From positions 1 through 25,497 of IMG/VR virus record IMGVR_UViG_3300006914_000022: a stretch of DNA of 25,497 nucleotides; one strand, written 5' to 3'. A model generated the notes under the pieces. The model saw nothing but the letters and a program-made list of their open reading frames with translations, made no database searches and was not told the DNA's origin. Position numbers and translations under genes: made by a program. This document shows positions 1 through 9,868 of this stretch, one piece after another. How positions within the stretch are numbered: position 1 is the first letter of the stretch; the number at the start of each line of letters is the position of its first letter. This DNA is from a virus.

Positions 1-19
1 TTGCCGCCGTGAAAGGCGG

Positions 20-211
20 TTAATGCTTCACGTGAACGGAATATTTCAGCGCGGCCCGTTCCCCCATGCGCCGGAAGCTGTCCTTTGTCCATACAAATAC
101 CGTCCCCCAGTTGCGCATAGGCCGGACGTTGCAAACCCGAATGGGCTTATCGGCGCCGGGGACGGGCCAGGGTTTAATGTGCGGGTTGAGGTTGTCGTAG
201 CGGAATTCCAA
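20..211 (-). CDS. Possible overlapping or frameshifted reading frame, 63 aa
   Basis: This frame opens at a TTG inside the 94-aa gene, in the -1 frame relative to it, and has no visible Shine-Dalgarno. Its composition (charged residues, two Trp-containing segments, a basic end) looks more protein-like than the overlapped C-terminal half of the 94-aa frame. Just past its stop is a small hairpin, CCGCC/GGCGG at 4-8 and 15-19. Two readings are possible: the true C-terminus of the upstream gene after a -1 frameshift or indel, or a separate gene. No slippery heptamer is obvious at the junction, so I favour an indel. Confidence 0.3.
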   Translation of the reverse strand: MEFRYDNLNPHIKPWPVPGADKPIRVCNVRPMRNWGTVFVWTKDSFRRMGERAALKYSVHVKH

Positions 212-330
212 ATGGTCCAGCGCGGTTGAGTGCCGAAACCATCGTCAGGGGTTCCAATCTCAATCGTGTTATCCCATTCAGAAACCCGCCACGGCGTCGG
301 CGTATGCTTAGCGTCGGTGGGCTTAACCAT
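46..330 (-). CDS. HTPTPW-motif small phage protein, 94 aa
   Basis: The start is supported by a strong Shine-Dalgarno (AGAGGAGG, six bases upstream) and by overlap with the end of the 52-aa gene before it. Residues 9-16 read HTPTPWRV, an N-terminal motif common in small phage early proteins of unknown function. The first ~45 residues look like real protein. The rest (Ser/Thr/Pro/Gly-rich) looks less natural, and a different frame (20..211) reads better there, so the gene may be frameshifted, by biology or by error. It is the third gene of a leftward operon. No function can be assigned. Confidence 0.55.
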   Translation of the reverse strand: MVKPTDAKHTPTPWRVSEWDNTIEIGTPDDGFGTQPRWTIWNSATTTSTRTLNPGPSPAPISPFGFATSGLCATGGRYLYGQRTASGAWGNGPR

Positions 331-481
331 TGGCGGCCTCCTCTAGGGCAGCAACCGCACTCAAGACCTCATCCTCCCCGAACCGCGACGCCTCCGCCCC
401 ACAATCCGCGCAGCGCAGCCACACGCGCCGCCCCAAAACGCCCATCAGAAACAACGGGCCTCCGCAAGAAGGGCAATCCAT
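323..481 (-). CDS. Small zinc-ribbon protein, 52 aa
   Basis: This frame is short but convincing. Four cysteines form two CxxC knuckles (C3/C6 as CPSC, C24/C27 as CADC) separated by 17 residues, the layout of a treble-clef or zinc-ribbon fold, followed by an acidic, helix-forming tail. The ATG lies one base after the stop of the 42-aa lipoprotein gene, with GGGGA just upstream, and the stop overlaps the start of the 94-aa gene, so all three are probably translationally coupled. Binding of Zn is inferred from the cysteines. Proteins like this often bind nucleic acid or other proteins, but the partner cannot be read from the sequence. Confidence 0.7.
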   Translation of the reverse strand: MDCPSCGGPLFLMGVLGRRVWLRCADCGAEASRFGEDEVLSAVAALEEAANG

Positions 482-482
482 C

Positions 483-611
483 TTAATTCCCCATCCCGCG
501 CATCACCTTCTCCACGTCCCGCCGCGTATGCTCAACGGCCTTGACCTCCACAAAACACCCCGCGACATACGACGACAACAACAACCCCACAATCAACAGG
601 ATTTCTTTCAT
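483..611 (-). CDS. Tiny lipoprotein or membrane-anchored peptide, 42 aa
   Basis: First gene of the leftward operon. AAGGGAG lies seven bases before the ATG. Residues 4-18 are hydrophobic and end in a textbook lipobox, V16-A17-G18-C19, so Cys19 would be lipidated after signal peptidase II cleavage, leaving a 24-residue charged mature peptide. A simple N-terminal membrane anchor is the alternative. Size and lipobox resemble outer-membrane spanins, but those usually sit beside an inner-membrane spanin in the lysis cassette. This gene is in a leftward, probably early, operon, so superinfection exclusion or envelope modification is equally possible. Function unassigned. Confidence 0.6.
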   Translation of the reverse strand: MKEILLIVGLLLSSYVAGCFVEVKAVEHTRRDVEKVMRGMGN

Positions 612-648
612 GGTCAGACTCCCTTTTTGCGCGCTTTGCTTCTGCTCC

Positions 649-702
649 AAAAAAATCCCCCGACGGCGCGAGAAAGGCGCGGGGCCTTCTTTCCGTCGGG
701 GG
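649..702 (-). terminator. Intrinsic terminator in the leader of the leftward operon
   Basis: A perfect 10-bp stem, CCCCCGACGG (657-666) with CCGTCGGGGG (693-702), is followed on the minus strand, after GA, by seven T residues (655-649). This is a canonical Rho-independent terminator for leftward transcription. It lies downstream of the leftward promoter and upstream of the first gene, the position of an attenuator. Its 26-base loop contains one arm of a competing hairpin (see 668-734). Confidence 0.75.
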
Positions 703-734
703 GAATAACTCGGGCCCCGCCATTCCTTTCTCGC
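668..734 (-). promoter_or_regulatory. Competing antiterminator hairpin (attenuator leader)
   Basis: Two arms pair over 18 bp. Arm 725-734 (CCTTTCTCGC on plus) pairs with 668-677, and arm 713-720 (GGCCCCGC) pairs with 679-686; only four bases (721-724) versus one (678) are unpaired in the middle. The pairing traps one terminator arm in the loop and uses the bases between the two terminator arms. Only one base (667) joins the hairpin to the second terminator arm, so a pseudoknot is sterically impossible and the two structures must exclude each other. The unpaired AATG contains the ATG (723) of a possible 63-codon leader frame (532-723). Confidence 0.6.
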
Positions 735-740
735 ATCCCT

Positions 741-769
741 AGTTTATGTCAAATCAACTCGGGCGTCAA
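741..769 (-). promoter_or_regulatory. Leftward sigma70-type promoter
   Basis: On the minus strand TTGACG (769-764) is followed after exactly 17 bases by TAAACT (746-741). This predicts a transcription start near 733-735, which coincides with the first base of the antiterminator arm at 734. That coincidence supports both calls. An overlapping TTGACA (752-747) lacks a good -10 partner. The promoter would drive the lipoprotein, zinc-ribbon and HTPTPW genes. Confidence 0.5.
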
Positions 770-826
770 GGGTTTTATTCTTGTAGGGAAAGGCCCGCCA
801 GAAAAGAATTACCAGACGGTTACATA

Positions 827-843
827 ATGAGACTCAGTCTCAT
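827..843. promoter_or_regulatory. Palindromic operator, upstream copy
   Basis: A 17-base perfect palindrome with 8-base arms (ATGAGACT / AGTCTCAT) around one central base. Its right arm contains AGTCTCA, also found in the tandem operators at 967 and 988. The centre is 138 and 159 bp from those sites, both close to whole numbers of helical turns, which would suit looping by a dimeric repressor. No good promoter overlaps it. Confidence 0.5.
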
Positions 844-926
844 TTGTAATCCTACGACGGATAAATCAACATTCCTGGAAAGTCAATGGTTTCGTGAAGG
901 CCCCAAAAGCAGCCCATTCGCCCCCC

Positions 927-955
927 TTGACATTTTCTCTCCCGTGCTCTATGAT
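927..955 (+). promoter_or_regulatory. Strong rightward sigma70 promoter
   Basis: TTGACA (927-932), a 17-base spacer and TATGAT (950-955) give an almost ideal housekeeping promoter on the plus strand, with transcription expected to start near 962. Two tandem operators begin immediately downstream (966), so a bound repressor would block initiation or clearance. The first plausible product is the 57-aa frame at 1042; read-through could feed the late genes. Confidence 0.7.
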
Positions 956-965
956 TTTACTTGCC

Positions 966-1001
966 GAGTCTCAAAGACTCTTAATCAAGTCTCAGAGACT
1001 C
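966..1001. repeat. Tandem 15-bp palindromic operators, 21-bp period
   Basis: GAGTCTCAAAGACTC (966-980) and AAGTCTCAGAGACTC (987-1001) match at 13 of 15 positions, and each is a dyad AGTCT-N3-AGACT. The 21-bp repeat distance is two helical turns, so two dimers would sit on the same face. They lie just past the predicted start of the 927-955 promoter. This is the arrangement expected for a phage repressor or Cro-like regulator; no such gene is in the window. Confidence 0.6.
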
Positions 1002-1041
1002 CCGGGAATGACCCAATCGGTCCGCCTAACCCGGTTAATAA

Positions 1042-1215
1042 ATGACGGAAGCGTGGGGCCACGTCAAAACGCTTGCAACGTCGGAGACCCCTGTTCCAGA
1101 GCCGCCGAGGCTCTTCTCACAAGTCCGGGAAGGTTGGGACCTCTCCTATAACGGCGATAGCTTAGGACGCCTGATGAAGGATTCCCCCGAGTCATTCCTC
1201 ACCGGCCACTGGTAA
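1042..1215 (+). CDS. Putative small early protein, 57 aa
   Basis: First open frame after the strong promoter and operators. It starts at ATG and ends in SFLTGHW. The ribosome site is poor (only a purine-poor AT stretch precedes it), which lowers confidence. The composition is ordinary, with a Pro-rich segment at residues 18-22 and no recognised motif. A 7-bp hairpin follows the stop at 1222-1243. Its last codons contain CACTGGTAAG, which recurs inverted in the operator at 1294-1311, so this DNA may be regulatory rather than coding. Confidence 0.35.
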   Translation: MTEAWGHVKTLATSETPVPEPPRLFSQVREGWDLSYNGDSLGRLMKDSPESFLTGHW

Positions 1216-1221
1216 GACGTC

Positions 1222-1243
1222 GGAAGGCAAACGAAAGCCTTCC
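1222..1243 (+). other. Stem-loop after the 57-aa frame
   Basis: GGAAGGC and GCCTTCC form a perfect 7-bp stem around AAACGAAA. No T tract follows directly. About 30 bases on, a weaker A/T-rich hairpin (1254-1264 with 1274-1284) ends in a run of eight T. Together they may attenuate transcription between the two rightward promoters. Confidence 0.4.
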
Positions 1244-1289
1244 CATTTCGGCAGAGAAAAGAAAGAGAGGGAGACTCTTTTTTTTCCTT

Positions 1290-1330
1290 TTGACACTGGC
1301 ACTTACCAGTGATCAAAATGACTCATTATA
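1290..1330 (+). promoter_or_regulatory. Second rightward promoter with palindromic operator
   Basis: A consensus TTGACA (1290-1295) is followed after 18 bases by CAAAAT (1314-1319), with CATTAT further on (1324-1329). A separate dyad, CACTGG-N6-CCAGTG (1294-1311), fills the spacer, so a bound protein would block polymerase. Its right half with the spacer, read on the minus strand, repeats CACTGGTAAG from 1207-1216. The -10 is weak, perhaps needing an activator. It is placed to drive the packaging and virion operon. Confidence 0.4.
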
Positions 1331-1334
1331 CCCA

Positions 1335-1362
1335 GCGCCCGACGAAAGGGGAATCCGGGCGC
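1335..1362 (+). other. 5'-UTR stem-loop before terS
   Basis: GCGCCCG (1335-1341) and CGGGCGC (1356-1362) pair perfectly around a 14-base loop, just upstream of the ribosome site of the small terminase gene. It may stabilise the late mRNA or modulate translation; there is no T tract, so it is not a terminator. Confidence 0.4.
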
Positions 1363-1377
1363 GGAAGGTGGGGATAG

Positions 1378-1923
1378 ATGGAAGGGGTAGGCGCCGGCCC
1401 GACACACACGACACGGCCTGTTAGGCGTGATCCGAGGTTCATCCCTAATCATACGATAGACCCGGCAACGGGGTTTATGGAGAATCGAGGATATTTAGAC
1501 GCATTTGACGCAACAAAGAAGCAGGTTTTCATTGAGGCTTTGCGGGCAAATGACTTTCGTTTGCTTCCTACCTGTCAAACTCTTGGGATTTCTCCCCATA
1601 CTGTCCATCATCACCGGCGAACTGACAAGGCCTTTGACGCGGCGGTCCGTCAGGCCGTAGAGGACTATGCGGAAAACCTGGAATGGATGAGCCGGGCGCA
1701 AGCGATGGAACCCAGGGCGACTCTAGAGCGAATCTTCCAGTTACGGGCCCTTCGCCCGGAGCGATATGCGCGAGAATTAAAGCAAAATGACAATAATATT
1801 ACGATAAAGCTTGACTTTCAATCTATTCCAAATGTGGTCAATCGGGATGCGGTTATTGATGTGGCGATGGAATCTGGTGAGGTTGAGAGTGCCAATATGC
1901 AGCTAGAGGGCCCCGGGCAGTGA
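1378..1923 (+). CDS. Terminase small subunit (DNA-recognition HTH), 181 aa
   Basis: Likely the DNA-recognition subunit of the packaging motor. Residues ~47-85 form a helix-turn-helix with the pattern of a short helix, LGISPHTV turn and recognition helix. They are followed by a long charged helix with the RALRPERYAREL element (123-134) seen in many small terminases and related phage HTH proteins. Length fits the family. It sits first in the packaging operon, before the large subunit. GGTGGGG precedes the ATG. The C-terminal ~45 residues are polar and would contact the large subunit or portal. A phage transcription factor is the main alternative. Confidence 0.65.
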   Translation: MEGVGAGPTHTTRPVRRDPRFIPNHTIDPATGFMENRGYLDAFDATKKQVFIEALRANDFRLLPTCQTLGISPHTVHHHRRTDKAFDAAVRQAVEDYAENLEWMSRAQAMEPRATLERIFQLRALRPERYARELKQNDNNITIKLDFQSIPNVVNRDAVIDVAMESGEVESANMQLEGPGQ

Positions 1924-1951
1924 TTTCCCCCGCATATCCTCCATTCCTCGA

Positions 1952-2001
1952 CGGAGCGGCGTTCTTCTTAGGAAGAATGCTCCGCGTCCTGGACGTTTTT
2001 T
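1952..2001 (+). terminator. Putative terminator or processing hairpins after terS
   Basis: CGGAGC pairs with GCTCCG, and GTTCTTC with GAAGAAT (one G-U), giving a 13-bp stem with a three-base bulge and a TTAG loop. A small CGTC/GACG hairpin follows and then six T (1996-2001). The T tract is adjacent only to the small hairpin, so termination would be partial. The stretch 1924-2116 contains no convincing gene. Confidence 0.4.
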
Positions 2002-2116
2002 CTCCGGGCCGGACAAAAGAATTACTTCGGAATCCTGGCCAAAAACCCCAGGGCCGGGGGGGAGTCTATGGTATTCCCCTTCACCCGACTACGTCCCACA
2101 AAAAGGCCCCCCTTCC

Positions 2117-2428
2117 ATGACCTCTCCCCAACGCCTCTCCAAGAAAAAGCCCATTTCTCTAGAGGTCCTACGCCATTGCATCGAGGCCCAAGCCAACGAG
2201 CTATTGGTTTTAGGGGCTCGGATCAAGGTTTTGGAGGCCAAGCTTCAGACGATTGAGGCCTATCTCACCTGGTCTATTGCTCCTCTTGGGAAGAATGTTC
2301 CGTTGCCCTTCGGCCACTGGACCTACACCACATCGAGTTCTTCTGACTGTGCCACGACAGGATCAACGGGAAGGGCCCCAGAATGCCCGGCAAGGCCCCT
2401 TAAGTCCCGGCGACGGGGGAAGAGATGA
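2117..2428 (+). CDS. Small coiled-coil protein, 103 aa
   Basis: Residues ~14-52 form an amphipathic, Leu/Glu/Lys-rich helix likely to be a coiled coil. The second half is Ser/Thr-rich and ends in a very basic tail. The stop overlaps the next ATG (ATGA), supporting the frame. The ribosome site is weak, and the frame stays open well upstream with no earlier usual start. The alternative frame at 2068 has a better ribosome site but unnatural composition. It lies between small and large terminase, where accessory DNA-binding or packaging factors are common, but no family is recognised. Confidence 0.5.
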   Translation: MTSPQRLSKKKPISLEVLRHCIEAQANELLVLGARIKVLEAKLQTIEAYLTWSIAPLGKNVPLPFGHWTYTTSSSSDCATTGSTGRAPECPARPLKSRRRGKR

Positions 2429-2703
2429 GGTTCATCCTCAGCATGTTCATGCTGTTGATATTTCTGCTTTTGGCTGGGGCCTGTGCGAGGGCGAAGGCTG
2501 TGCCTATTGATGCTTGTCGGGGGGAGAAGGAATCTTTGGGTTTGCAGGTTTATCTGCTTCAGGATCAGGTGAAGAGTTTAGAGGACCAGCTGGTGGTGGC
2601 GCGGGCTGGGGCGAGGGTGGAGAAGAAGGAGCGCAAGAGGGTGCGGCGGCCGGCGGGGCGGCCTTTGGCGAAGGCCATGAATACGGGGAGTCCCTGCGAA
2701 TGA
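2425..2703 (+). CDS. Membrane-anchored coiled-coil protein, 92 aa
   Basis: The N-terminus (residues 2-18) is strongly hydrophobic and ends near AGAC, so it is a signal anchor or, less surely, a lipoprotein signal (the -3 residue is not ideal). Residues ~34-60 form a heptad-rich helix, followed by a Lys/Arg-rich tail. This topology (one N-terminal membrane segment, then a coiled coil) resembles an inner-membrane spanin, but the location between the terminases and the lack of an embedded partner argue against it. ATGA overlaps at both ends show coupling to the neighbours. Function unknown. Confidence 0.6.
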   Translation: MRFILSMFMLLIFLLLAGACARAKAVPIDACRGEKESLGLQVYLLQDQVKSLEDQLVVARAGARVEKKERKRVRRPAGRPLAKAMNTGSPCE

Positions 2704-4241
2704 TCAGCGATCGTGTCAGCAAGCCAGCGGACCGGGACCCTCGGCTGCTTCAGGTGGCCGAGCTGGCGAAGAAGAGCCTTCATTATTTGTGCACGGGGTT
2801 TTTGGGATATAAGGACTGGGACTATCGGATGAGCGCGGACCAGAAGAGCCTGCATGGCCTGCACGACCATCTGGAGATTTTCCTTCGTCGGCCCAGCAAG
2901 AAGAAGGCCATTCTCCTGCCCCGTGGTCATTTGAAGTCGACGTTCGTGACCATTGGGTTCACGATCCAAAAGATTCTTCAGAATCCGAACATCAGGGTGC
3001 TCATCGCCAATCAGATATGGGACATGTCGAGGAGATTCTTAAGCGAGATCAAAGGACAGTTGGAGGGGTCCCAGTTGAAGTATTTATTTGGCGAGTTCGT
3101 AAGTCCTCGGTGGAACCAGGACGACATCATTGTCCGCCAGAGGACCCGGCCTCAGAAGGAACCGACGGTGATGACGACGGGCGTGGAAGCGGAGCAGACG
3201 GGCGGCCACTTTGATCTCATCATCCTTGACGACCTGACGGGCCTTCAGAATTCACAGACGCCAGAGCAGCGGGAAAAGACCAAGCGTTTCCGTCGATCGA
3301 TGATCAATCTATTGGAGCCCGGCGGGACATTAATTGAGATTGGGACGCGCTGGCATTTGGACGATACCTTCTCCGTCATTTTCGAGAAGGAGCGAAAATA
3401 TTTCGACATTATGATTCGCCAGGTAGTGGAAAAGGGAAGGATTATTTTTCCCCAGCATTTCTCCAAGCGTTTCGACGAGAAGAAGAAGGACTGGATCCCG
3501 GCCCCCGAAGAGAACTGCATGGACTACATCGACCATCTAAAGGCCAGCATGCCCTTAGATGAGTTTCAGGCCCAGTATATGAACATGCCCATCTCGTCGG
3601 AAAACGCGGTCTTCAAGAAGGAGATGTTCAAGTATTGGGGCCAGCGGCCGGAGGGATTGTATGTGGCGATGGCCGTGGACCTGGCGATTTCGCAGAGGAC
3701 CGAGGCCGACTATACGGCCTGTGTGGTCCTGGGGATGGACAAGAACTATTCGATTTACGTCCTGGATTATACGCGCGGTCACTGGACCCCCACCGACATC
3801 GTCAACAACATTTTCGACATGCAAGCGAAGTGGAAGCCGTTCCAGGTGGGGATGGAGGTGAACGGGTTTCAGCGGACGCTCAAGCTTTCCGTCGAAGAAG
3901 AGATGCGCCGCCGCAAGCAATATTTCCCCGTCGAAGAGATCCGCACCGGCCCCGACAAGAGTAAAGAAAACCGGATCAAGAGTCTTGAGCCATTTTACCG
4001 CCGCATGGAGATGTATCACGCGAAATGGATGGAGGGGAAGGACCTGGAGATCGAGCTTCTGACGTTTCCCAAGGGCCGGCACGACGATATCGTGGACGCG
4101 ATGGCGATGTGTCTGCCGCTTTTGAGCCCTGGCGTGGGGATGCCGCAGAAGGGCATGGAGCCGGGGACCTGGGAATTTGTGGAGCGTCAGGCCCATCGGT
4201 TTAACCGTCCGTTCCGGGAGTTCTTCAATTATGGGCAGTGA
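2700..4241 (+). CDS. terL: Terminase large subunit (TerL), ATPase plus nuclease, 513 aa
   Basis: Packaging motor that cuts the concatemer and pumps DNA into the prohead. ATPase half: Walker A-like LPRGHLKST at residues 73-81, Walker B FDLIILDD at 171-178, coupling motif GTRWHLDD at 215-222. RNase H-like nuclease half: AVDLA with Asp327, GMEVNG with Glu386, and HDDIVDA with Asp462/463/466 as metal ligands. All expected catalytic positions are present. The ATG at 2700 overlaps the previous stop (ATGA) and follows GGGGAG; the open frame reaches back to 2514, but that part is a shadow of the preceding gene. The length is normal for the family. Confidence 0.95.
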   Translation: MISDRVSKPADRDPRLLQVAELAKKSLHYLCTGFLGYKDWDYRMSADQKSLHGLHDHLEIFLRRPSKKKAILLPRGHLKSTFVTIGFTIQKILQNPNIRVLIANQIWDMSRRFLSEIKGQLEGSQLKYLFGEFVSPRWNQDDIIVRQRTRPQKEPTVMTTGVEAEQTGGHFDLIILDDLTGLQNSQTPEQREKTKRFRRSMINLLEPGGTLIEIGTRWHLDDTFSVIFEKERKYFDIMIRQVVEKGRIIFPQHFSKRFDEKKKDWIPAPEENCMDYIDHLKASMPLDEFQAQYMNMPISSENAVFKKEMFKYWGQRPEGLYVAMAVDLAISQRTEADYTACVVLGMDKNYSIYVLDYTRGHWTPTDIVNNIFDMQAKWKPFQVGMEVNGFQRTLKLSVEEEMRRRKQYFPVEEIRTGPDKSKENRIKSLEPFYRRMEMYHAKWMEGKDLEIELLTFPKGRHDDIVDAMAMCLPLLSPGVGMPQKGMEPGTWEFVERQAHRFNRPFREFFNYGQ

Positions 4242-4347
4242 GACGATCAACCATTTTCTTTTCTCTTTCGGCGCCGGATTTATCTCGGGGTCTTTCGGCG
4301 TGATTCTTTTTCTGTTGCTGTGGAATTTGTTCGACAGGAACTGCTGA
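4231..4347 (+). CDS. Single-pass membrane peptide, 38 aa
   Basis: A very short gene overlapping the end of terL by 11 bases. GGGAG lies 10 bases before its ATG, and its stop overlaps the next start (TGATG). After a short polar N-terminus, residues ~9-33 are hydrophobic with small-residue patches (Gly, Ser, Ala), a clear transmembrane helix, followed by a polar, positively charged C-terminus. A pinholin-like or membrane-signalling role is possible but unsupported; the lysis genes are 20 kb away. Confidence 0.6.
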   Translation: MGSETINHFLFSFGAGFISGSFGVILFLLLWNLFDRNC

Positions 4348-4529
4348 TGCCTTCGATCCAGTATGAGTTCCCGACGAAGTATTTCCCCTGCGGGATCTGT
4401 GGCCGTGGGCTCCTGATGAAGATTGGGGACGATCAGCAGTATGACTTTGCGAGCGCGGAGGATCGCGGCGCTTGGCCGCGATATTCCGAACCGATTTGTA
4501 GGGACTGTCTGGGGAAGAAGAATGTCTGA
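4347..4529 (+). CDS. Zinc-ribbon protein, 60 aa
   Basis: Four cysteines in two CxxC pairs (C15/C18, CGIC; C51/C54, CRDC) 32 residues apart indicate one bound zinc. AGGAA lies seven bases before the ATG at 4347, which overlaps the previous stop; the frame is open further upstream to 4320, but that part reads through the membrane peptide gene. The stop overlaps the portal start. Small zinc proteins near portal genes are common in phages, usually without known function. Confidence 0.65.
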   Translation: MPSIQYEFPTKYFPCGICGRGLLMKIGDDQQYDFASAEDRGAWPRYSEPICRDCLGKKNV

Positions 4530-6357
4530 CGCGACTTATACCGCCGAACAGACTACCGCCCCATCAACGGACGCCGGCAAAGAGGTGAGCCGTTGGATGG
4601 ACCGGATCACCATCGCCAAAAAGTCGCATGAGCAATGGGAGAGCGAGTCCGGCGCAAAACGGTTCATCGACGAATATAACGGGAAGTTCGATCTTTTCTT
4701 CAATGGTCTCAAGGGCAAAATCCCCGTTCCTCCCATCAACGAAGTGTTCGCCTATGTTCAGGCCGACATAGCTGTCATGAACAACCGTGACCCCTATCTT
4801 TCCGTCAATCCAAGGACGGGGACGGTAGAAGGGGCGAAGCTTTGGGAGGTGGCTATCAACCAGGAATGGCGCCATCTCCGGACAAAAGAAGAGACGGATC
4901 TGGAGATCATCGACAAGGACTTGGTGGGTTTTGGGTGGCACAAGGTGGGCATGAACATAGAGTCTGAGGGGGACGGCGACGATCTTCATATCACCAGCCA
5001 GGAGCTTTACTCGATGCGGGTGGACTGGCGCGACGTTCTTTGGAACATCGGGGCCAAGCGGCCTCCCAAGGATTGTGTTTGGATGGCCCAGCGCATTGTC
5101 AAGCCGTTGGAATGGGTCAAGAAGAAATATCCCAACGCCGCCACGATCGAAGGCGTGAACCATCCAGAAGTGGACGAGGTTTCTCTTCGGAACGCTCTTT
5201 ACAAAGACGACATCAAAGTGGTGGTGATGTGGGAGGTGTGGGATTCCGAATCCAAGCAGATCTATCTTTTGGCGGAGGGATTGAAGGAAAAATATCTTCA
5301 AGATCCCAAGCCTTGGCCGCCCTACCTCGACGAGTTTCCTTTCCTGATGTATTGGGATTATCTTTCTGCTGGCAAGAGCCGGCCCATGTCGGCGATTGCG
5401 CCTTGGGAAAGCCAGATCTTGGAAAAGATGGTGATCTTGGCGAGCGCGGTTAATCATGTCAAGCGATGGAATCGGCAGATGATTGTCAAGCAGGGCACTA
5501 TTTCCGACGAGAGCCTGGATCAGTTCGAGCGCGGCGACGATGGCGCCATTATCAACAACACCGGCAGCGGCGATCTCGCGGCAAATGTCAAGTTATTGGA
5601 CTTCGGGCAACTTCCCACCGACTTCTATCTCATCTTGGACCGGCTGTCCCAGATCGAAAATAACGTGAACGGTCAGCCTGAAATTGATCGTGGCGGCGTC
5701 ACCAAGACGAACACGCGGACGATCGGCGAATTGGAATTGATCAAGCAGGGCGCGAAGGGCAGGACCGATCGGAAGATCGATCGCTTTGAAACCCACCAAG
5801 AGAACATCGCCCGTCACATGATGGCCCATATGAAGGCCAACTATGACCTGCCCACGCTGATGACGGTCACCGGCGATACGCCCGAAGAAGTGATCCAAGC
5901 CTTGGGCCATAACTACGACCCCATAACCCGCAGCGTGACTTTTACACCCGCAGAGATTGAGGGTGAATACGACGTGGAAGTGAAGGCTGGGTCCACGCTT
6001 CCTCTCAACCGCGAAACCAAGCTTCAAATCCTAGAGAACGTCCTTCAGACTCTCGGCAATATTTCGCCCAATGGGCCCTCTCCCCTTCTGACGGCCGTGA
6101 TCACCGAGATGTTGGAAGCCTTCGACATGAAGCGTCTGACTGATGCCTATAAAGAAGAGCAGCAGGCCATGCAGCAACAGCAGCAGGCCGAGGCCCAGAC
6201 GGCGCAGGCCGGGCAGATCAAGGATCGGGCGCAGGCCGCCAAGAATGTGGCGCAAACGGACAAACTCACGGCGGAAGCGGACATCATGCGGGAGCAGCAC
6301 GTGATGAATCAGCTTATACCGCCCCAGCCGGCGGAGCCCGTCGGAGCGCGACCGTGA
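4522..6357 (+). CDS. Portal protein, 611 aa
   Basis: Dodecameric channel at the capsid vertex through which DNA enters and leaves and onto which the tail is built. Position directly after TerL, before scaffold and capsid, and a size of ~600 residues fit podovirus-type portals. The body is alpha/beta with many Trp/Tyr. The last ~70 residues (542-611) are a Gln/Ala-rich helical barrel-like extension with QQQQQ, as in P22-type portals. I chose ATG 4522 because GGGGAAGAAGA precedes it; the longer frame from 4423 overlaps the zinc-ribbon gene. No invariant motif defines portals, so the call rests on position, size and overall pattern. Confidence 0.85.
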   Translation: MSDATYTAEQTTAPSTDAGKEVSRWMDRITIAKKSHEQWESESGAKRFIDEYNGKFDLFFNGLKGKIPVPPINEVFAYVQADIAVMNNRDPYLSVNPRTGTVEGAKLWEVAINQEWRHLRTKEETDLEIIDKDLVGFGWHKVGMNIESEGDGDDLHITSQELYSMRVDWRDVLWNIGAKRPPKDCVWMAQRIVKPLEWVKKKYPNAATIEGVNHPEVDEVSLRNALYKDDIKVVVMWEVWDSESKQIYLLAEGLKEKYLQDPKPWPPYLDEFPFLMYWDYLSAGKSRPMSAIAPWESQILEKMVILASAVNHVKRWNRQMIVKQGTISDESLDQFERGDDGAIINNTGSGDLAANVKLLDFGQLPTDFYLILDRLSQIENNVNGQPEIDRGGVTKTNTRTIGELELIKQGAKGRTDRKIDRFETHQENIARHMMAHMKANYDLPTLMTVTGDTPEEVIQALGHNYDPITRSVTFTPAEIEGEYDVEVKAGSTLPLNRETKLQILENVLQTLGNISPNGPSPLLTAVITEMLEAFDMKRLTDAYKEEQQAMQQQQQAEAQTAQAGQIKDRAQAAKNVAQTDKLTAEADIMREQHVMNQLIPPQPAEPVGARP

Positions 6358-6767
6358 TTTGCGAGGGATGCGGCCAGAGGGCTTATGCGACATTTACGAG
6401 ATGGCCCAAAAATGAAAAAGGCGAAACGGAAAAGGTCCAGACGTGCAACATCTGCGGAGGGTCCTCGATTGGGGGATCTCCTGACATCTATTGGGATGGG
6501 AAGCCGGAAGAGGGGTTGGCTGACGATGCTCATACTGGCAAGCCGCGCGTCTTCGGATCCCGAGGAGAAAAAGCCCGCTATCTCAAAGAACGCGGACTTA
6601 TCGAGGCGGGAGATAGACAGCGCGGGGCCCCGGCAAGCATCCTCAGCAATCGAGTGGAAAACCGAGGATTATCCGCGCAACAGGCCTTGCAGCGAGTGCG
6701 GCAGATGGGCGCCGACGTTCGACGGCAAGAATTTCTGAGGATCATAAAGGAGGGCCACCGTGGGTAA
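6354..6767 (+). CDS. Zinc-ribbon protein after portal, 137 aa
   Basis: Starts at GTG overlapping the portal stop (GTGA), with GGAG seven bases upstream; the start must be this early because the first CxxC is at residues 3-6. The second is at 31-34, giving an FmdB-like zinc ribbon. The C-terminal half carries a basic helical segment (FGSRGEKARYLKERGLIEAG, about residues 67-86) like those in phage proteins found next to portals. Possibly structural or a DNA-binding accessory; function unproven. Confidence 0.7.
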   Translation: MICEGCGQRAYATFTRWPKNEKGETEKVQTCNICGGSSIGGSPDIYWDGKPEEGLADDAHTGKPRVFGSRGEKARYLKERGLIEAGDRQRGAPASILSNRVENRGLSAQQALQRVRQMGADVRRQEFLRIIKEGHRG

Positions 6768-6798
6768 ACGAGTGAAACCGAAACGGCCGCGATCATAG
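6760..6798 (+). CDS. Possible 12-aa basic micropeptide
   Basis: A near-perfect Shine-Dalgarno, AAAGGAGGG (6746-6754), lies five bases from a GTG that opens a 12-codon frame, MGKRVKPKRPRS, with seven Lys/Arg. The frame overlaps the previous stop by eight bases. No other start uses this ribosome site. It may be a real micropeptide, the remnant of a longer gene, or a site that only supports coupling. Confidence 0.35.
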   Translation: MGKRVKPKRPRS

Positions 6799-6811
6799 AA
6801 ATAGCTTTAAA

Positions 6812-6827
6812 TGTTTCATGTGAAACA
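6812..6827. promoter_or_regulatory. parS-like ParB-binding palindrome
   Basis: TGTTTCATGTGAAACA differs at one central base from the chromosomal parS consensus TGTTTCACGTGAAACA. The dyad extends to nine bases per side (6810-6829). It occupies the only real intergenic gap between portal and scaffold. No parA or parB is present in the window, so the ligand would be the host ParB/Spo0J or a gene elsewhere in the phage. As RNA it could form an 8-bp hairpin, but no T tract follows. Confidence 0.55.
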
Positions 6828-6854
6828 TTGTATGTCAATTAATTTGGAGGACTC

Positions 6855-7073
6855 ATGGACATGAAGCGTATGGGCATTGCGGCATCGATGGCGGGGCAAC
6901 CCGCGCAGCCCAGGCAGCCCAGCGTCGGGGACAGGCCGCAAGGCGGCGGCGTGGACGCCAAAATCGAGCAGATCCATCAGGCCGTGATGAAGCTCTCGGC
7001 GCAGATGGATGCTCTTTTGGGCGAAGAGCAGTCCATGCAAGAGCCTCAAGGGGTCCCCGGTGCCGGCCAGTAG
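6855..7073 (+). CDS. Small coiled-coil phage protein, 72 aa
   Basis: GGAGG lies five bases before the ATG. Residues 1-33 are Pro/Gln/Gly-rich and flexible; residues 34-60 form a single amphipathic helix suited to oligomerisation. It sits between portal and scaffold with DUF3008-like and scaffold genes following, so it may be a minor head or assembly protein. No family is recognised. Confidence 0.6.
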   Translation: MDMKRMGIAASMAGQPAQPRQPSVGDRPQGGGVDAKIEQIHQAVMKLSAQMDALLGEEQSMQEPQGVPGAGQ

Positions 7074-7248
7074 TGAAGCCCAGCGCCGGCTCTTCGGCAT
7101 GGTGCTGGCGTATAAACGCGGCAAGCTCAAGACCGCCTCGCCCGTGGTGAAGAAGGTCTCAGCAGGCGTCAGCGAGTCCTCCGCGTCGGATTTCGCATCA
7201 GAGGTCAAAAAAAAGAGAGAGCGGTTGGCCAGAAGCATGGCCACCTGA
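7060..7248 (+). CDS. DUF3008-like small virion-operon protein, 62 aa
   Basis: The start is GTG at 7060 with AAGGGG six bases upstream, overlapping the previous gene by 14 bases. The frame opens earlier, but only this start gives the family-like N-terminus PASSEAQRRLFG, followed by LAYKRGKLKTASPVVKK. That pattern (SEAQ, KRG, ASPxxKK) is characteristic of short proteins in phage head operons usually annotated as DUF3008. Very basic and helical. Possibly a minor internal or DNA-binding component; function is not established for the family. Confidence 0.65.
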   Translation: MPASSEAQRRLFGMVLAYKRGKLKTASPVVKKVSAGVSESSASDFASEVKKKRERLARSMAT

Positions 7249-7257
7249 GGAGAAAAA

Positions 7258-8115
7258 ATGGACCCCACAATTTCGAGCCCGACCCCAGTAAGCGCTTCGG
7301 CGGCGACCCCGGCAACGGAACCCGCCGGCGTGAATGGGACGGCTCAACTCAACGGTGAAGCGAATGGGCAGAGCGCATCCGTTGAAGAGATGTTCGGGAA
7401 TGTCGACCCGAAAACTTTGCCTCCGCAGCTCAAGAGCGTGTACGACAACATGCTCCGTGGCTTCAAAGAGAAGACCACGAAAGTTGAAGAAACGGTGAAA
7501 TCCCGTCTGGCCAAAGAGTTAGAGCCATATAGGACCAAGGCGCAAACCTACGACCAGATCGTCCAGCAAGAGGAGTTCGTGAAGCGCTGGAACGAATATG
7601 TCGAGGAGCAAAATGCGAGGGCCCGGCAGCAGAACGTGGATCCGAACGATCCGAACGCCAAGCTCCTTCAGGAAGTCGAAAAACTGAAAAGAGAGCATGC
7701 AATGACGGCGGCGGAGATTCGGACGACGAAGGCGTTGGATTCCATTAACGCTTTCGCCGAGGCTGTGGATGAGAAGGGTGAAAAGTTACATCCCGAGTTT
7801 GACAAGCTCTCCAATTTGTCGCTCGGCACCCACGCCCAAGCCGGCACCTACGATCTGCTGCGGACCGCTGTCGAGCTTGCCCCGGGCAACTCGCCCGAGG
7901 AAAAGCTTGAGAACGGTTATAAGGCCGCCAAGGCCGTGTATGACGGCATCTATGAAGAAGGCGTGAAAGCGGGCAAGGGGCAGTTGATGCAAAAGGTGAG
8001 GAATAGCACCACGCCTCCCTCCAACATCGCCGCCACCAGGTTCAGCAATGAGCGCCCCAAAGATGCGCTGGAAGCTCTGCAAATGGCCAAGAAGGGGATC
8101 GCCGTCCAACGATAA
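7258..8115 (+). CDS. Capsid scaffolding protein, 285 aa
   Basis: Scaffolds direct prohead assembly and then leave. This gene lies directly before the major capsid gene, where scaffolds are found. The protein has a disordered Ala/Pro/Thr-rich N-terminus (1-45), long charged coiled-coil stretches (about 65-160), no cysteine, and a basic C-terminal segment of the kind that binds coat protein. GAGG lies before the ATG. The call rests on position and composition, as scaffold sequences are poorly conserved. Confidence 0.8.
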   Translation: MDPTISSPTPVSASAATPATEPAGVNGTAQLNGEANGQSASVEEMFGNVDPKTLPPQLKSVYDNMLRGFKEKTTKVEETVKSRLAKELEPYRTKAQTYDQIVQQEEFVKRWNEYVEEQNARARQQNVDPNDPNAKLLQEVEKLKREHAMTAAEIRTTKALDSINAFAEAVDEKGEKLHPEFDKLSNLSLGTHAQAGTYDLLRTAVELAPGNSPEEKLENGYKAAKAVYDGIYEEGVKAGKGQLMQKVRNSTTPPSNIAATRFSNERPKDALEALQMAKKGIAVQR

Positions 8116-8129
8116 ATAGGAGGCATTAA

Positions 8130-9095
8130 ATGGCGGCACCCACGCTACTGACTTACGGTCCGGGCAACGTTGACGAAACCCTGACGCTTGCCTGGAGCAA
8201 CATGATTCCCGAGATCAAGGACAACGTGTTCAGCGAGAACACCGCCCTTGGTTGGCTTTACTCCACCGGCAAGAAGTCGTTGAAGGGCGGAGCGTCGATC
8301 TCGCACGGCCTGATGTATGGGGGCAATGCTGGCGCTGGTTCTTATGCGCGCTATGAGATCCTGAACGTTGCGCCGGTTGACGGGCTGACCCGCGATCAAT
8401 GGGTCTGGAAACAGTATGAATGCCCGGTGACCATCGACGGGTTTACCGAGCGGGATGCGACTCAGGGAGATTACGCCCTGGCTGATGCGCTGGAGACCAA
8501 GAAGAAACAGTCTGAGGGAGCCATTCGCAATCTCCTGGAGACTGACATCTTCAAGGCTTCTCCCGGCACCAATGATCTGCGTTCTCTGCCGAACATCGTC
8601 TTGGGTTCTGGCACTGAGGGACAGATCTCCGGGACCTCCAACAGTTGGTGGACTTCCACGGTGAACGCGGCGGGTTCTTGGGCGACAGGTATTGGCCGCA
8701 CGCAGTTGGTCAATACGATCAACACCCTCAACAAGAAAAACCCCGTCGGCATGCCGGACTTGCTGCTCTCCGACCAGACCTCCATCGAGGCTTATGAAGG
8801 GACGCTGGTTCCTCAGTATCGCTTCCAAAGCAATAAGGGCGATCTGGGGCTCAGCTCCAACCTGACCTTCAAGGAGATCCCCTGGATGTGGAGCGTGCAG
8901 GGTACCAGCGGCGTGATCTATGTCCTCAACTCCGACGCGCTCAAGTTCTATGTGAGCAAATCCACGGACTTCCTCTTCACGGGGTTCGTGCGGCCGGCCA
9001 ACCAGGATGCAAAGGTGGGGCATATCCTGCTCACCTGCGCGCTGGCGACCTGCTATCGCCGGAAGCTGGGCAAGACGACCAGCAACGCCGCCTAA
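8130..9095 (+). CDS. Major capsid protein, 321 aa
   Basis: Strong ribosome site (ATAGGAGG) 14 bases after the scaffold stop, as expected for the most abundant virion protein. The sequence is alpha/beta, rich in Gly/Thr/Asn, with a long internal helix-rich stretch around residues 110-145 and a beta-rich C-terminal half; this is consistent with an HK97-type fold. Length is typical for small phage coats. The subfamily was not recognised with certainty, so identification depends on position after portal and scaffold and on size. Confidence 0.85.
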   Translation: MAAPTLLTYGPGNVDETLTLAWSNMIPEIKDNVFSENTALGWLYSTGKKSLKGGASISHGLMYGGNAGAGSYARYEILNVAPVDGLTRDQWVWKQYECPVTIDGFTERDATQGDYALADALETKKKQSEGAIRNLLETDIFKASPGTNDLRSLPNIVLGSGTEGQISGTSNSWWTSTVNAAGSWATGIGRTQLVNTINTLNKKNPVGMPDLLLSDQTSIEAYEGTLVPQYRFQSNKGDLGLSSNLTFKEIPWMWSVQGTSGVIYVLNSDALKFYVSKSTDFLFTGFVRPANQDAKVGHILLTCALATCYRRKLGKTTSNAA

Positions 9096-9107
9096 GGAGG
9101 AACAAAC

Positions 9108-9368
9108 ATGGCCTTCGCCACCACGAACGTCGTCCGGGAAAATGCCGGGTCCGTTAATGTCGTGCGGGGGAATTGGAGCGCTTCTGTGGGAGATGCTGCG
9201 GGGACGATCACGGTGGGGAGCGTCGCTTTGGACGCTGAGTTCCACCAGAACTTGTCCTCGGGGCCCTATCAGAATCGCATCCCGACCTCCGGGCTTGGCA
9301 CCAACGTTGTCACGGTCTATCACTTGGGGGCCGTGACGAATGGAACCTTCACCATCAGGTTCAAGTAA
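9108..9368 (+). CDS. Probable head decoration or minor capsid protein, 86 aa
   Basis: TAAGGAGG precedes the ATG, 12 bases after the capsid gene. The product is a small, cysteine-free, beta-strand-rich protein with alternating Val/Thr/Gly and no helices, like small decoration or head-stabilising proteins encoded right after coat genes. No conserved motif proves this. It may instead be a short head fibre. Confidence 0.6.
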   Translation: MAFATTNVVRENAGSVNVVRGNWSASVGDAAGTITVGSVALDAEFHQNLSSGPYQNRIPTSGLGTNVVTVYHLGAVTNGTFTIRFK

Positions 9369-9376
9369 CCAAGTAG

Positions 9377-9408
9377 CCGTCCACCAGACGGTCGGCGGCG
9401 AAAGCCGC
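9377..9408 (+). other. Two tandem stem-loops between head genes
   Basis: CCGTC/GACGG (9377-9381 with 9387-9391) is followed by GCGGC-GAAA-GCCGC (9395-9408), a perfect stem closed by a GNRA tetraloop. Both precede the TAGGAGG ribosome site of the next gene. There is no T tract, so an mRNA-stabilising or processing role is more likely than termination. Confidence 0.4.
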
Positions 9409-9427
9409 TAAATATAGGAGGCAGCAT

Positions 9428-9868
9428 ATGGAATTCGCACAGCTGAATCGAAACGACGCCGAGAAGATTTTCATTTCGGGTCGCAATATCACGGGGGCGA
9501 CGGTTTCGGCCGGGATCCCCGTGGAATGGGACGTGGTGACGGCGACGGACGGTAACTCGTTCACCGCCGCCAAGTCGGGCAGTCTCTCGGGCCTTTTCGC
9601 CGGGATCACCGACGCCTCGCTGACGGACAGTTCTTACGGCCGCATCCAGGTCTATGGCTTCCGCACCAGCGCGTATATCTCGGGCGCTTCCGCCGGGAAC
9701 TATGTGGGCACGTTCCTCCAGCCGACGAACGGCATCTTGACGGACATGACGATGAGCGCGGCCACGACTTCCGGCCACACCAAAGTCGTGCTCTTTGAGA
9801 CCATCGGCGCCGCTGCGGGGAACTCGGCCACGCTCCAGTACAACGTCTTCATCCGCGCTCTCGGCTAA
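9428..9868 (+). CDS. Probable virion surface protein, 146 aa
   Basis: Excellent ribosome site (TAGGAGG) before the ATG. The protein is beta-rich with Gly/Ala/Ser/Thr and has repeated short strands without cysteine. Residues ~10-60 resemble the small beta-barrel of decoration or head-fibre proteins. It follows capsid and small decoration genes, so a second outer head protein is the best guess. It is the last virion gene before the glycosyltransferase cassette, and so a possible target of that cassette (inference). Confidence 0.55.
   Translation: MEFAQLNRNDAEKIFISGRNITGATVSAGIPVEWDVVTATDGNSFTAAKSGSLSGLFAGITDASLTDSSYGRIQVYGFRTSAYISGASAGNYVGTFLQPTNGILTDMTMSAATTSGHTKVVLFETIGAAAGNSATLQYNVFIRALG

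Follow-up and report, generated by a model that had tools for sequence, protein, structure and literature searches.

A candidate conditional terminator in the leader of a phage leftward operon

What decides whether a leftward transcript of an uncultured virus reaches its genes, when an intrinsic terminator and a second, interleaved hairpin both lie in its leader? We addressed this question in the window, the whole 25,497-nucleotide stretch of IMG/VR record IMGVR_UViG_3300006914_000022, for which the original prediction had placed a terminator/antiterminator pair in the leader of the leftward operon. The main rivals to a conditional, attenuator-type terminator are a small non-coding RNA gene and an unregulated partial terminator. 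Coordinates of the stems, U-tract and promoter were all verified on the sequence, and the features are as follows.

Layout of the leftward leader

741–769, minus strand: sigma70-like promoter TTGACG-17-TAAACT, 9/12 consensus matches, predicted start near 734
725–734, minus strand: competing (candidate antiterminator) hairpin, 5' arm of the lower helix, perfect complement of 668–677
713–720, minus strand: competing hairpin, 5' arm of the upper helix, GCGGGGCC, complement of 679–686
703–725, minus strand: third small hairpin (725–719/709–703), predicted alongside the terminator state in a constrained fold of 734–649
693–702, minus strand: terminator stem, 5' arm (T1), perfect complement of 657–666
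679–686, minus strand: competing hairpin, 3' arm of the upper helix, within the terminator loop
668–677, minus strand: competing hairpin, 3' arm of the lower helix, within the terminator loop
657–666, minus strand: terminator stem, 3' arm (T2), perfect complement of 693–702
649–656, minus strand: terminator U-tract, A656 then T655–649
486–611, minus strand: first leftward gene, 42 aa with a hydrophobic N-terminal segment, AGGGAG 7 nt before the ATG
323–481, minus strand: second leftward gene, a 52-aa zinc ribbon weakly like the restriction-alleviation protein Lar (PF14354, E 3.8e-5)

The promoter-like site is present as predicted. Sites with 9 of 12 matches are expected by chance about 1.1 times per 2.5 kb, so this one is moderate on its own; it is the sole qualifying minus-strand site in the interval 612–930. 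A relaxed minus-strand scan of 600–1380 yielded two further 9/12 sites, both far upstream (984–954 and 1353–1325), and no other promoter nearer than 984–954. Site 769–741 is the putative promoter of the leftward operon, with the proviso that it has only 9/12 matches to a consensus that may not be that of the host.

From the predicted start at 734 the leader runs about 123 nt to the first leftward gene, for which no family match was found; the PF14354 match of the second gene falls below the curated cut-off. Another contig, IMGVR_UViG_3300050506_000196, is 100% identical to window positions 1–9789 and extends 3,487 bases further to the left, where there are many more small leftward genes, including a metallophosphoesterase. 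Because the leftward genes continue beyond the window edge on this contig, the terminator has the nearest upstream promoter on one side and a leftward operon on the other. Terminase, portal and capsid genes lie on the rightward side, and the region is a divergent control region.

Other elements were noted in this control region. A palindrome with half-sites GAGTCTC/GAGACTC occurs in three copies (825–845, 966–980 and 987–1001), two of them closely following a strong promoter-like site for rightward transcription at 927–955 (TTGACA-17-TATGAT, 11/12), and these palindromes look like repressor operators. The rightward leader (962–1300, before the terminase genes) folds better than its shuffles (z = -2.69, equalled by 0/100), and at its end there is a hairpin with a run of eight T at about 1264–1283, so a structured leader may be present on the rightward transcript too.

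The leftward terminator has 10 perfect, G+C-rich pairs and a 26-nt loop followed by A and seven T, which makes it a canonical intrinsic terminator; a scan of the window returned no other that combines a T run with a stem of 8 or more perfect pairs. It occupies 702–649, between the promoter at 769–741 and the ATG at 611, as expected for an attenuator. Its loop is filled by the 3' arms (A') of the competing hairpin. Read 5' to 3' from 734 on the minus strand, the RNA is GCGAGAAAGG AAUG GCGGGGCC CGAGUUAUUC CCCCCGACGG AAAGAA, continuing with GGCCCCGC G CCUUUCUCGC G CCGUCGGGGG AUUUUUUU, and the elements follow in the order A (helices of 10 and 8 pairs), T1, A', T2 and U-tract. The competing stem had been described as an 18-bp stem; all of its pairs are present, as two helices of 10 and 8 pairs split by a 4x1 internal loop.

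Since the terminator and the competing stem interleave (A-T1-A'-T2) without common bases, the exclusion between them is topological. The competing arrangement proposed earlier holds, and the claim that both structures cannot form at once was overstated. By a geometric estimate, which was not computed, linkers of 6 + 1 nt are too short to bridge the 18-bp stem and close the full terminator; the outer six G-C terminator pairs could form with about 10 + 5 nt of bridging, giving a partial pseudoknot, so exclusion need not be complete. A similar order (P1-P2-P1'-P2') is that of an HDV-type ribozyme, a candidate that we dropped after a check by eye found no third hairpin that fits between T1 and A'; no Rfam ribozyme matched.

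Rarity of the interleaved arrangement

We used dinucleotide-preserving shuffles, of the whole window (both strands) and of the local sequence, as controls. Shuffling the whole window 150 times produced two terminators of this class, and shuffling the local sequence 3,000 times produced one. With the terminator taken as given, 48 of 20,000 shuffles had a perfect competing helix of 10 or more pairs in its loop, and none of 3,000 had a competitor of at least 18 pairs over two helices, which bears out the original view that chance is an unlikely explanation. A scan of about 1.09 Mb of DNA from this, related and more distant phages found 23 such terminators, of which only two have an interleaved competitor (at least 8 pairs in the loop), this leader and one from a distant relative, L026. 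Interleaving of this kind is unlikely by chance.

These figures bear on one of the main rivals, in which an unregulated partial terminator or insulator simply damps leftward transcription and the competing hairpin is incidental, or serves as a 5' stabiliser of the mRNA or an RNase III site. For a sequence of this base composition, the minimum free energy of the stretch as a whole is unexceptional (z = -0.64), which suits this explanation; the evidence comes from the length and exactness of the helices and not from total energy. An incidental hairpin is hard to reconcile with the absence of any 18-pair competitor from 3,000 shuffled terminator loops, and we consider the explanation unlikely.

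The element in L026 (923–1005, minus strand) has the same order, with A at 1005–997, T1 at 972–965, A' at 955–947 and T2 at 930–923, then ATACTTTTT. It is located inside the leftward operon, ahead of a gene that matches HNH and AP2 weakly, and there the terminator fold is the stabler (-27.2 vs -23.3). The estimated chance of one such case in the scanned DNA is roughly 5%.

Predicted folding and switching

Folding was computed with an equilibrium nearest-neighbour model that ignores pseudoknots and kinetics, taking 10 nt as hidden in the polymerase. The two competing states foreseen for this leader were both recovered: with the polymerase at the U-tract, the competing hairpin has a computed probability of about 0.98 and the terminator of 0.01, so that, by computation, an alternative fold preventing the terminator exists. 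For the 86-nt RNA, the computed energies are -38.4 kcal/mol in the competing state and -35.4 kcal/mol in the terminator state, a gap of only 3 kcal/mol. The terminator rises to about 0.95 in the same model if 4–8 nt at the 5' end are masked or if the start is moved from 734 to 730. Such nearly balanced states would be unexpected of the incidental hairpin that an unregulated terminator implies.

These values suggest an attenuator-like device whose default is read-through and in which occupying or removing the 5' end should cause termination. In an RNA starting near 734, the 5' arm (734–713) would pair with 686–668 before the second arm of the terminator is made, locking the first terminator arm in a loop, and the polymerase would continue into the operon. 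If a ribosome, an antisense RNA or a protein bound there kept the 5' arm unpaired, or if transcription began a few bases downstream, the terminator would form at the U-tract, releasing an RNA of about 85 nt. With read-through as the default, transcription should stop when the 5' arm is lost. Given the position of the terminator, the shuffle statistics and the folding, we rate a conditional terminator in the leader of the leftward operon at about an even chance.

The original prediction made translation of a leader frame (532–723, minus strand) the trigger. Its ribosome site and ATG are present; the SD-like AAAGGA directly abuts the ATG at 723 with zero spacing, which makes a ribosome a weak trigger, and with a start at 734 only 11 nt precede that ATG. 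The frame encodes 63 aa and runs 80 nt into the first real leftward gene in a different reading frame, and so does not amount to the short leader ORF, translatable from its own ribosome site, that ribosome-mediated attenuation calls for. For want of spacing between AAAGGA and ATG, we rejected a leader-peptide trigger as the main model; of the initial proposal, the terminator/antiterminator in the leader is supported, translation as its trigger is poorly supported, and strict exclusivity goes too far. A second frame (614–736, minus strand; 40 aa) has its ATG at the predicted transcript start and its TGA two bases before the ATG of the first gene. It matched no family and is usable only as a leaderless frame, so it may be a leaderless leader peptide or a product of chance.

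A narrower form of the conditional terminator would be a topological attenuator, with interleaved helices that have no bases in common and with the switch thrown by the first few 5' nucleotides, through start choice or a factor covering the 5' end, and not by a translated leader peptide; the element before the homing-endonuclease-like gene of L026 would then be an independent example. We regard this specific version as quite improbable.

Promoter, structured body and canonical terminator also make up a complete small RNA gene, which would yield a structured RNA of about 85 nt from promoter 769–741, ending at the terminator with some leak into the operon. There is a precedent in IsrK of the Salmonella prophage Gifsy-1, where a terminator near the transcript start yields a short RNA or, when the polymerase passes it, an mRNA (PMC4825925). 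Such a gene fits poorly with a predicted default fold that hides its terminator, and it would have no need of the strong complementarity between the 5' end and the terminator loop. An Rfam search of the leader gave no family at gathering score; the best sub-threshold matches, NsiR1 (E 0.1) and SIB_RNA, were treated as chance. On balance we think a small RNA gene improbable, to about the same degree as an unregulated terminator.

A processive antitermination RNA like put of phage HK022, placed directly after an early promoter and acting on the polymerase, would share with putL a site just downstream of a leftward phage promoter and a stable 5' structure. The putL RNA is about 70 nt long with two stem-loops, and these adjacent stem-loops bind the polymerase and act at a distance (PMC9378689). 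Here the default fold is instead one long hairpin, overlapped by a strong terminator and unmatched in Rfam at gathering score, and we judge this explanation very improbable.

Known systems and relatives

In the trp attenuator, the 1:2 hairpin accompanies the 3:4 terminator. The present leader resembles trp-type attenuators in that the RNA ahead of the first gene can take either of two folds, one of them an intrinsic terminator, and in the small 5' hairpin that goes with the terminator state as 1:2 does with 3:4. It differs in that its helices are interleaved, with exclusion by topology, and in having no convincing leader peptide with regulatory codons. IsrK is likewise a phage transcript with a terminator near its start, and there the short form affects, in trans, how the long form is translated (PMC4825925). 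In phage P4, as summarised in the same source, antisense CI RNA pairs with seqA/seqC and causes premature termination in the leader (PMC4825925). On that summary, premature termination in a phage leader under the control of RNA pairing is common to both, as a prediction here, and P4 differs in using an antisense RNA, no second complementary RNA having been identified here. HK022 putL, too, is a structured RNA with which a leftward phage transcript begins and which influences termination, again a prediction in our case.

Among the titles and abstracts listed by searches of open-licence literature, none matched a phage attenuator with interleaved hairpins. We view the leader as a variant of known attenuators and as a probable on/off checkpoint, seen in one uncultured virus. 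Should the prediction hold, it would place a checkpoint at the RNA level on phage leftward genes, possibly without a dedicated protein, and leaders of other phages could be searched for its compact interleaved layout; at present it is a single sequence from a single uncultured virus.

We searched IMG/VR with the small and large terminase, the capsid, the first two leftward genes, profiles and a DNA pattern, and found the leader only in the identical contig. A capsid search of prokaryote genomes returned nothing, and window positions 300–1400 had no match in a phage DNA collection. Capsid and terminase searches retrieved relatives with capsid identities from 83% down to 38%. The nearest (83%, L006) starts inside the terminase gene and thus comes without the leader region; L017 and L125 have another gene order. 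Four relatives keep the divergent order, L065, L019, L024 and L015 (G006; G005/L016 closely similar), each with a leftward promoter-like site (10–11/12) just before the first leftward gene. Their predicted leaders are 31, 46, 71 and 31 nt long, respectively, and hold no comparable terminator or interleaved element.

Within the DNA searchable, the leader element is thus lineage-specific. Its absence from these relatives counts against the attenuator reading, the one further copy of the leader, being 100% identical, has no differences from which covariation could be read, and the short leaders of the relatives favour an unregulated terminator in so far as they imply that regulation here is dispensable.

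Upstream of the small terminase gene in L065, L019 and L015, the leftward promoters overlap or adjoin lineage-specific palindromes identified by eye, e.g. ATACTAAGCGCTTGGTAT in L065. This pattern suggests that each virus has its own repressor/operator pair.
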